Below, piece by piece: positions 12,215 through 13,168 of a stretch of DNA of 13,168 nucleotides. A model generated the notes under the pieces. The model searched no databases, was not told where the DNA came from, and worked only from the letters and a program-made list of their open reading frames with translations. Positions within the stretch are counted from its first letter, which is position 1. Each line of letters begins with the position of its first letter. Source of the stretch: Filomicrobium sp. (GTDB lineage Bacteria > Pseudomonadota > Alphaproteobacteria > Rhizobiales > Hyphomicrobiaceae); contig JAJFHK010000055.1 in NCBI GenBank assembly GCA_021775655.1, positions 1-13,168 on the forward strand, written 5' to 3'. Made by a program: the position numbers and the translations under genes.

Positions 12215-12240
12215 TCCAAAGCTAATTGAGGAGTACCAAC

Positions 12241-12792
12241 ATGCTAATGAGAGATATCTTGAGCCCAATCGCTGCCGTCGGAGCGCTGGCGGTCGTATCA
12301 TCGTCATCGCTGACAGCGGCGCCTGCGACCTCTCCTGCTGCAACCATCCAACCTGTGTTGGCCGTCAACACACTCATCGATAAGTCAAGCGTTGGTGGCA
12401 AAACAGCCGGTAGCTATCTTCACTTGATACAGAGTAAAAAACAGCGGCGCGCTCGCCGAGCGCGCGGTATCGCAAGAAAAGCTGAGCGTCGCAGAGTTCG
12501 GCGCGCCAAGCGGAAATTCAGAAATCGCAATCGGCGCCTGCGCAACCACTATTATGGTCGCCGTCACCGCTACGGTCGCCGCCACCACTACGGTCGCCGT
12601 CACCGCGGCGCAAGTGTTGCAGCCGGGATTGCCGGTCTGATCATTGGCGGAGCAATTGCAGCGTCGCAAAGAAAATACTCAAGCCGCTGGGACCGGTGCG
12701 ATGCAGCCTACCGGACGTTCCGATGGAGCGATGGTACCTACATTCCATACGTTGGCAGCCCGCGTGTTCTTTGCCCTTATCTTCGTAGGTAA
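12241..12792 (+). CDS. BA14K-family secreted/membrane protein with Arg-rich middle
   Basis: 183 residues from ATG 12241, which has GAGGAG at 7 nt; a TTG at 12226 in the same frame overlaps that site and is rejected. Residues 1-29 are a signal peptide (IAAVGALAVV core, AAPA at the end). Residues 66-122 are very basic, with three GRRH units in a Tyr/His/Arg-rich run (104-122). A small-residue helix follows (124-142, GIAGLIIGGAIAAS, glycine-zipper-like). The C-terminal module 150-181 has the BA14K pattern: Trp150, Cys153, Tyr-Arg, Tyr167, Gly172 and Cys178-Pro-Tyr. BA14K was described in Brucella as a 14-kDa lectin-like immunoreactive protein and is common in Hyphomicrobiales; its molecular role is unclear. 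The Arg-rich insert is longer than in minimal family members. Confidence 0.85.
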   Translation: MLMRDILSPIAAVGALAVVSSSSLTAAPATSPAATIQPVLAVNTLIDKSSVGGKTAGSYLHLIQSKKQRRARRARGIARKAERRRVRRAKRKFRNRNRRLRNHYYGRRHRYGRRHHYGRRHRGASVAAGIAGLIIGGAIAASQRKYSSRWDRCDAAYRTFRWSDGTYIPYVGSPRVLCPYLRR

Positions 12793-12846: not shown

Positions 12847-12922
12847 CTAGTGTTCCGGTTCTGACATTTGCCCCCTGTCCGGCGAGGTTCTGAGCAAATG
12901 TCAGAACCATGAGGAACACGAG
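12847..12922 (-). repeat. Hairpin unit 1 of the CTAGTGT array
   Basis: Inner arms GGTTCTGACATTTGC (12857-12871) and its exact complement (12894-12908) enclose a 22-nt loop. Outer arms GTGTTCC (12850-12856) and GGAACAC (12913-12919) continue the stem; ATGA (12909-12912) bulges on one side only. CTAG at the left foot faces GAG at the right. Read on the minus strand the bulge is TCAT on the 5' side, the same polarity as the other units. Confidence 0.95.
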
Positions 12923-12993
12923 TGTCGTGATCGCGAAATTCGTCACATTCGTCGGCACCCTCAGAACGAATTTCGCGATCTGAACGACACTAG
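12919..12993 (-). repeat. Hairpin unit 2 of the CTAGTGT array
   Basis: Inner arms GATCGCGAAATTCGT (12929-12943) and its exact complement (12966-12980) enclose a 22-nt loop. Outer arms AGTGTCGT (12921-12928) and ACGACACT (12984-12991) pair exactly; TGA (12981-12983) bulges. The right foot is ACACTAG. The left foot shares CGAG with the right foot of unit 1, so the two units abut or overlap. Confidence 0.95.
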
Positions 12994-13006
12994 CAACATC
13001 AATGAT

Positions 13007-13084
13007 CTAGTGTGATTCAGATCGAGAAGTCCGCCTCGAAACCCAGCCGCAAAGTATGAAGCGGACTTCTCGATCATCACACTA
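13007..13084 (+). repeat. Hairpin unit 3 of the CTAGTGT array, opposite orientation
   Basis: Inner arms GATCGAGAAGTCCGC (13020-13034) and its exact complement (13061-13075) enclose a 26-nt loop. Outer arms TAGTGTGAT (13008-13016) and ATCACACTA (13076-13084) pair exactly over 9 bp. The bulge TCA (13017-13019) is on the left, the mirror of unit 2, so this unit points the other way. Confidence 0.95.
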
Positions 13085-13098
13085 TCAACTCCATGATT

Positions 13099-13168
13099 CT
13101 AGTGTAGCTTTTGTCTTCGACGTTTGCTCGCCAACAAAGCAGCGGAGCGGAGGCAAACGTCGGAGACC
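13099..13168 (+). repeat. Hairpin unit 4 of the CTAGTGT array, cut by window edge
   Basis: Inner arms GTCTTCGACGTTTGC (13113-13127) and GCAAACGTCGGAGAC (13153-13167) pair at 14 of 15 positions, the odd one a G-T wobble, around a 25-nt loop. The left foot is CTAGTGTAGC followed by TTTT, where other units have TCA. The matching right foot should lie just beyond the window. Confidence 0.82.

Follow-up and report, generated by a model that had tools for sequence, protein, structure and literature searches.

At the end of one contig of a draft Filomicrobium sp. genome (529 contigs, 70% complete), four hairpins occupy the final 322 bases (12847–13168) of the stretch that was analysed; their arms are 15 bp long and pair perfectly in three of them and at 14 of 15 positions in the fourth. 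This stretch, hereafter the window, is the entire contig C480 (13,168 bases). The earlier note, made from the sequence alone, had described an array of four consecutive hairpins with conserved feet and differing stem sequences, and had offered as candidate roles a landing or recombination site folded as a single strand, a family of non-autonomous palindromic elements, or a transcribed structured RNA. The locus raises the question of what element these hairpins form and what keeps each pair of arms complementary while its sequence changes.

Of the ten longer open reading frames (ORFs) preceding the hairpins, seven matched Pfam families of ordinary enzyme or regulator types (acyl-CoA dehydrogenase, GcpE, polyprenyl synthetase, GGDEF/EAL, PHB regulator, thiolase and short-chain dehydrogenase). 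An 18-nt tandem repeat is present three times at 12540–12606, inside an ORF (12226–12792) in which basic codons are abundant. No Rfam family exceeded its gathering score in the window, the best sub-threshold match having an E value of 0.15.

Results

The four hairpins are two nested doublets

Hairpins with at least 14 of 15 arm positions paired and a loop of 18–30 nt occurred nowhere else in the 13,168-nt window and in none of 20 whole-window shuffles, and only 3 of 1,000 dinucleotide shuffles of 12847–13168 yielded one or more. Folded as single-stranded DNA, units 1 to 4 gave z values of −6.95, −5.93, −8.47 and −3.72, and for each unit none of 200 shuffles folded as well. The hairpins and their 15-bp arms were thereby confirmed, and shuffled sequence did not give such hairpins at this density, an outcome that the earlier note had named as refuting. 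The note's description of four consecutive units needs correction: units 1 and 2 overlap by CGAG, unit 3 is inverted with respect to the first two, with its 3-nt bulge on the 5′ side, and unit 4 is cut.

The segment reads in the order L1, L2, spacer, R2, spacer, R1 (Table 1). The four hairpins make up two copies of one element, which is about 165 bp long and has no gene; one copy has inserted into the other, and a doublet nested within a doublet replaces the array as the unit of description. The doublet of units 2 and 3 was placed at the CTAG that separates unit 1 from its spacer, which is the internal foot of the doublet of units 1 and 4. The foot of unit 2 reads CGAGTGT and unit 3 terminates in ACACTAT; the arms of unit 3 sit within an 18-nt pair at 94%. 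Unit 1 is of a left-unit type also found in locus L131. The nesting plan of the window was repeated in L102 and L172, whereas the inserted doublet of L125 occupies the second of the two internal CTAG feet. Neighbouring doublets with one common CTAG, either nested or head-to-tail, were found at nine distinct places (the window, L102, L109, L117, L125, L133, L134, L149 and L172).

Table 1. Features of the nested doublets at the end of the window
Feature	Position	Strand	Description
Unit 1, left hairpin of outer doublet	12847..12922	+	Foot CTAGTGT; arms 12857-12871/12894-12908 (15/15); ATGA unpaired on 3′ side
CGAG common to units 1 and 2	12919..12922		Left-hand copy, altered, of the CTAG into which the inner doublet inserted; unit spacing −4
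Unit 2, left hairpin of inner doublet	12919..12993	+	Arms 12929-12943/12966-12980 (15/15); TGA unpaired on 3′ side; model R1 67.1 bits
Spacer of inner doublet, 13 nt, CAACATCAATGAT	12994..13006	+	Length and form as in other doublets
Unit 3, right hairpin of inner doublet	13007..13085	-	Arms 13020-13034/13061-13075 (15/15); TCA unpaired on 5′ side; model R1 64.2 bits, minus strand
CTAT	13082..13085		Right-hand copy, altered, of the CTAG into which the inner doublet inserted
Spacer of outer doublet, 13 nt, CAACTCCATGATT	13086..13098	+	Sequence reading of the nested order
Unit 4, right hairpin of outer doublet, truncated by contig end	13099..13168	-	Arms 13113-13127/13153-13167 (14/15); model R1 38.6 bits, 5′ end cut

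The doublet is the unit of a dispersed family

A doublet comprises a left hairpin (about 76 nt), a 13-nt spacer and a right hairpin, the diverged counterpart of the left one in inverted orientation. When 10–18 nt were permitted between the inner feet, a search of five genomes returned 115 forward matches in four of them; the spacer was exactly 13 nt in all 75 matches listed, and its sequence was mostly CAAnnnTATGATT-like. Close pairs stood in left-then-right order in 122 of 131 cases, some loci being counted more than once. We collected 161 unique doublets with both outer feet, the 13-nt spacer being fixed at collection; their lengths were 141–171 bp, and 156 were 163–170 bp long. Among 197 ends, the outer foot carried C in 194, T in 187, A in 190 and G in 196, and the bases beyond it showed no strong preference. 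The unpaired bases lay on the spacer side of every stem.

Several departures from this plan were seen. Four loci (L268, L271, L282 and L344, in genomes G180 and G397) carried a short-loop form with 55-nt units and a doublet of about 120 bp, the loop being 4 nt in L268; several copies of this form in G180 and G397 were almost identical. Solo units (L335, L336, L337 and L340–L342), inspected by eye, combined the outer half of a left hairpin with that of a right one and lacked the bulge. At G010:C71:4207-4283, halves of two unit types were joined differently from those of the solo units.

Pairing is conserved within each hairpin

Each stem has 25 bp in two parts, an inner one of 15 bp and an outer one of 10 bp. 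In a set of 60 aligned units, hand-picked for diversity (25 pairs, 1,500 cells), 97.4% of the cells were paired. Two-sided changes were found in 285 cells, compared with 83.8 in shuffles and at most 53 in slid structures, and were distributed over 16 of the 25 pairs (13.2 in shuffles). One-sided standard changes affected 10 cells, and G-U pairs accounted for 12 of the 1,500. These data strongly bear out the earlier observation that pairing was preserved while sequence changed. Almost invariant were the feet and, in the inner arm, the initial G and the GA..TT positions.

Among 196 units in doublets, excluding those with fewer than 13 of 15 positions paired, the arms were perfect in 139, had one mismatch in 50 and two in 7. 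The two arms of a hairpin agreed on average at 14.67 of 15 positions, whereas the left and right arms of a doublet agreed at 10.5 of 15 (97 doublets; shuffled, 9.6). The constraint acts inside each hairpin and not between the two ends of the element. Avoidance of equal left and right arms was not significant (0 of 69 distinct pairs with at least 14 equal positions; permutation P = 0.14), and an analysis of wobble bias by strand gave no result, the changes being too few.

GANTC, the CcrM site, was present in 144 of the 161 doublets and was located mainly at the base of the inner stem; its frequency was 2.06 per doublet, compared with 0.21 in 245 flanking windows. Since TCNGA was enriched as much in the doublets (2.85), common ancestry of the arms may suffice to explain the enrichment.

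Copies multiply and probably decay

One genome (G010) contained 26 doublets with 26 different flanks and a median identity of 97.6% (range, 94.0–100%), pointing to recent multiplication. Among 137 unit copies, grouped by contig names and by manual matching of loci to record titles, arm changes were one-sided in 26 cases and two-sided in 8; in two groups the modal copy was itself mismatched, so some of the one-sided changes are reversions or reflect the choice of reference. Seven of the eight two-sided changes fell in L173, L210 and L211, copies that, as is usual for subtypes, have two or three differing positions, and one stood alone in L174. A mechanism that writes palindromes, which the earlier note had considered, thus received little support from young copies. 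Two genomes of one genus (G450 and G468) had a decayed doublet at a shared place (L375 and L376), indicating that some copies persist by descent.

Insertion occurs at CTAG

The element inserts at one CTAG, and CTAG is afterwards present on both sides. The sequence fits both a 4-bp duplication and a cut site carried by element and target. Orthologous sites were located by their flanks in a single genus of the order; a query from B. pachyrhizi loci matched one member at 100%, and the genus is accordingly regarded as Bradyrhizobium. At the L197 site, one of 30 loci was filled and 29 had no doublet at the junction; four of the empty loci (L414, L419, L421 and L429) had the identical junction with a single CTAG, L428 had almost the same, and the others differed. 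At the L363 site, the filled copy of which reads GTAG on its left side, five of 15 other loci aligned through the element and ten did not. The ten element-free loci comprised five with a single CTAG at the junction, four with a longer variant containing C/TTAG and one (L405) with another insert. This insert is a different palindromic repeat, occupying a CTAG that is empty in relatives. The single empty relative of the L367 site reads TTAG, one base different, and the empty relatives of the L371 and L372 sites have no clear CTAG at the junction; for the L366 site the one relative was filled. In the window's own family, a first comparison with empty sites met divergence too high for exact junctions. 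That sites are occupied in one genome but vacant in its relatives, and that dispersed copies are many, supports the candidate role of a non-autonomous palindromic element family.

On 65 of 211 sides, an open frame of 100 or more codons ended at the outer CTAG, the TAG of which was its in-frame stop. The corresponding values were 79 of 460 for the other two frames and 224 of 1,088 for other CTAG sites, and the excess is modest.

The family is found in Alphaproteobacteria

Genomes matching the exact-foot pattern CTAGTGT-N(52-82)-ACACTAG were defined as carriers by pattern. The pattern was present in 22 of 59 genomes, including that of the window, with up to 105 copies per genome (reversed control, 0–5); all 22 carriers were among the 35 genomes of the window's family, and none of the 24 genomes outside it carried the pattern. 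A zero count does not mean that a genome is free of the element, as G017 and G027, both zero by pattern, had six and two matches to model R1, respectively. Model R1 matched in 62 of 347 genomes of the order (28 of 129 genera), in 16 of 289 of the class and in 15 of 398 of the phylum, all 15 inside the class; these counts include the window's genome and come from overlapping samples, with 12–16 candidates scored per genome under strict filters. The units have homologues in related genomes, for which the earlier note had proposed to search.

A scan of genome contigs returned at least 114 stretches, the titles of which were alphaproteobacterial or, in a few cases, merely 'Proteobacteria'; among the matches listed were Hyphomicrobium, Bradyrhizobium, Nitrobacter, Afipia, Devosia, Phenylobacterium, Caulobacter, Acidiphilium, Paramagnetospirillum and others. 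All matches found belong to Alphaproteobacteria wherever title or kinship is specific enough. One full doublet used as a query gave no matches in plasmids at E 1e-5, and searches with the right hairpin, spacer and flank of L110 gave short, weak matches only (E limit 10), which carry little weight. Three stretches of viral contigs matched. In the viral contig L204 (2100-4475), two inverted doublets flank approximately 2 kb that by eye resembles a phage terminase gene. No prior description of the family was found in the open-licence literature searched.

Search for the mover

Matches to PF01797 (Y1 transposase) were present in 12 of the 59 genomes and in 4 of the 22 pattern carriers; the other 18 carriers, including G010 with its 102 exact-foot units, gave no match. 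Model R1 detected no units in 17 Y1 loci searched together with approximately 1.5 kb of flanking sequence. G017 had two PF01797 genes together with its six R1 matches. In L073 (G011:C23), an IS200-like element at approximately 1360-2175, with a Y1 gene containing one internal TAG, appears to be inserted in the outer foot of a doublet; this doublet is of an unusual subtype and provided the sole unit seen near a Y1 gene. On the basis of the 18 carriers without a PF01797 match and the 17 Y1 loci without units, Y1 (RAYT/IS200) was rejected as a necessary mover. Against the rejection stands that the exact-foot count misses some carriers, G017 with its two Y1 genes among them.

A gene-bearing partner, with a left hairpin, a gene and a right hairpin, was found neither in gaps between close units, nor in 20 further regions, nor by matching ends. 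A search for longer elements whose ends match and whose YTAR flanks are identical covered 1.54 Mb of DNA around doublets and Y1 genes, which is not a fair sample of insertion sequences; it returned seven pairs, of which six were doublet ends or feet and one was L079. The genes between neighbouring doublets in L195, L178, L172 and L097 resemble host genes (translations judged by eye). The 27 ORF clusters common to at least three loci contained no mover candidate, as judged by eye from example sequences, and the largest of them, present in 15 loci, includes a frame that overlaps the element. For an 18-kb region holding three doublets, 48 ORFs were listed; of the 10 that were scanned, six lacked a Pfam match and four resemble host genes.

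Discussion

The doublets form a real, mobile family with a REPIN-like build and a foot, stem and target of its own. REP dimers and REPINs associated with RAYT have much in common with them (PMC3733652): they are dispersed and free of genes, two palindromes stand in inverted orientation on either side of a short conserved spacer, the foot is a tetranucleotide, and hybrid dimers and solo remnants occur. The foot is CTAG here and GTAG in REPINs and GTAG REPs; the stem has 25 bp in two parts, compared with 5–13 bp in the REP table of PMC3733652, and the unit about 76 nt, compared with 20–40 bp. Our elements differ from REPINs also in having CTAG on both sides after insertion and in that no RAYT flanked by the repeats was found, 18 of the 22 carriers having no Y1 gene. 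CGTC REPs, according to PMC3733652, are mostly head-head dimers in Alphaproteobacteria without an associated transposase, as here, and differ in their foot (CGTC), stem (8–9 bp) and loop (4–5 nt, from the table). As regards Br-REP1 and Br-REP2 (PMC5082802), the Br-REP1 consensus and the first part of Br-REP2 each matched 0 of 161 doublets at up to 5 mismatches, and the second part of Br-REP2 (18 nt) matched 2 of 161 at up to 4 and 11 of 161 at up to 5, so neither repeat corresponds to the family.

The CIR (Caulobacter CcrM-associated intergenic repeats), as presented in PMC2229807, share two hairpin arms with a linker, TA ends, GANTC and occurrence in several Alphaproteobacteria. Compared by that description, CIR measure about 110 bp, against 163–170 bp in 156 of our 161 doublets and about 120 bp in the rarer form, and have GANTC at a terminal loop; here it lies in the loop of only 18 of 196 units. 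The MITEs RUP, ERIC and Correia/NEMIS resemble our elements in being small and gene-free and in duplicating a short target on insertion; each is a single end-to-end long hairpin (PMC2229807), whereas two separate hairpins are present here. Like a MITE, the family is small, gene-free and dispersed, with a single CTAG in empty sites and CTAG or a one-base variant on both sides of filled ones (two further sites are unclear).

In integron attC sites, the folded strand is recognised by its shape and the stem sequence varies freely; shape recognition of a folded strand would be a principle common to both systems. The attC core sites are RYYYAAC and GTTRRRY. These were found near opposite ends in none of 322 units, and no cassette arrays were seen. 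The exclusion of CRISPR and attC in the earlier note agrees with the nested-doublet reading and with this motif result.

We propose, with a probability of roughly 0.7, that the doublets are REPIN-like non-autonomous elements on which a putative mover acts in trans, in the form of a folded single strand, a mechanism inferred from the covariation. An enzyme supplied in trans would recognise the shape of this strand more than the full stem sequence, using the CTAG foot, the unpaired bases on the spacer side, the long stem and the fixed G and GA..TT positions. Selection for movement would maintain the complementarity of each stem while its sequence drifts. Inserted copies would then decay, with deletions between hairpins giving rise to solo units, and the CTAG feet would themselves serve as targets, generating nested groups like that of the window. 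The data are also compatible with a folded landing site. Counting against our proposal are the mover searches, which produced no candidate, the unclear CTAG at L371 and L372, the TTAG at L367 and the two-sided change in L174.

CTAG on both sides would be expected also from a transposase of the double-strand-cutting (DDE) type with a 4-bp duplication. The doublet could accordingly be a MITE of an ordinary DDE insertion sequence, the hairpins being incidental or regulatory; IS5/IS427-like or IS630-like elements are insertion sequences that target CTAG, and a small, gene-free, dispersed element with CTAG on either side suits this explanation, the most serious of the rivals. We nevertheless consider it unlikely, because recognition of ends in double-stranded DNA needs the two ends to agree better than the arms of each hairpin, the reverse of what was observed (10.5 against 14.67 of 15), and six of the seven pairs from the matching-end search, in its biased 1.54-Mb sample, were doublet ends or feet. 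Decidedly more improbable is that these are genuine REPINs in which CTAG has replaced GTAG and which a Y1 tyrosine transposase (RAYT or IS200 type) moves. In favour of this are the inverted doublet, the conserved spacer and the position of a tetranucleotide foot next to a bulged hairpin, all known from REP dimers (PMC3733652), and PF01797 matches in four carriers and, for two genes, in G017 with its R1 matches; most carriers, G010 among them, however, have no such match, the 17 Y1 loci contained no R1 units, and the doublet of L073 seems to have been hit by the IS200-like element.

The remaining explanations concern what maintains the pairing. Template switching, in which one arm is copied onto the other, would preserve complementarity by mutation and not by selection. 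Near-perfect arms across very different subtypes, the small number of G-U cells and the lone two-sided change in L174 are in its favour, but it is very hard to reconcile with the 26 one-sided against 8 two-sided changes in the grouped copies, seven of the latter lying in three subtype-like copies, and we give it little credence. Least probable of all is a transcribed structured RNA or 3′-end element retained to regulate a neighbouring gene. The excess of in-frame stops at the outer CTAG fits such a role; the scarcity of G-U pairs speaks against selection at the RNA level, and the absence of Rfam matches and the fact that sites are mostly empty in relatives also weigh against it.

A more far-reaching proposal can be made for the family, although as a whole it is quite unlikely. 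The hairpin pairs would be class-wide, their mover would be neither Y1/RAYT nor an integron integrase and would read the shape of the folded strand, and CcrM methylation of GANTC at the stem base would couple movement to the cell cycle. Dam methylation ties the movement of IS10 to the cell cycle, and CcrM is proposed as a parallel. If the folded-strand reading is true, the family would constitute a large natural data set on shape recognition by a DNA-processing enzyme, with many stem sequences that all pair while foot and core positions stay constant and the bulge keeps to one side. The mover itself is a well-defined object of search that should be possible to find. In Alphaproteobacteria, the family is a widespread source of insertion differences and of stop codons at gene ends, and probably also of assembly breaks, as the contig that forms the window ends in one of its copies.
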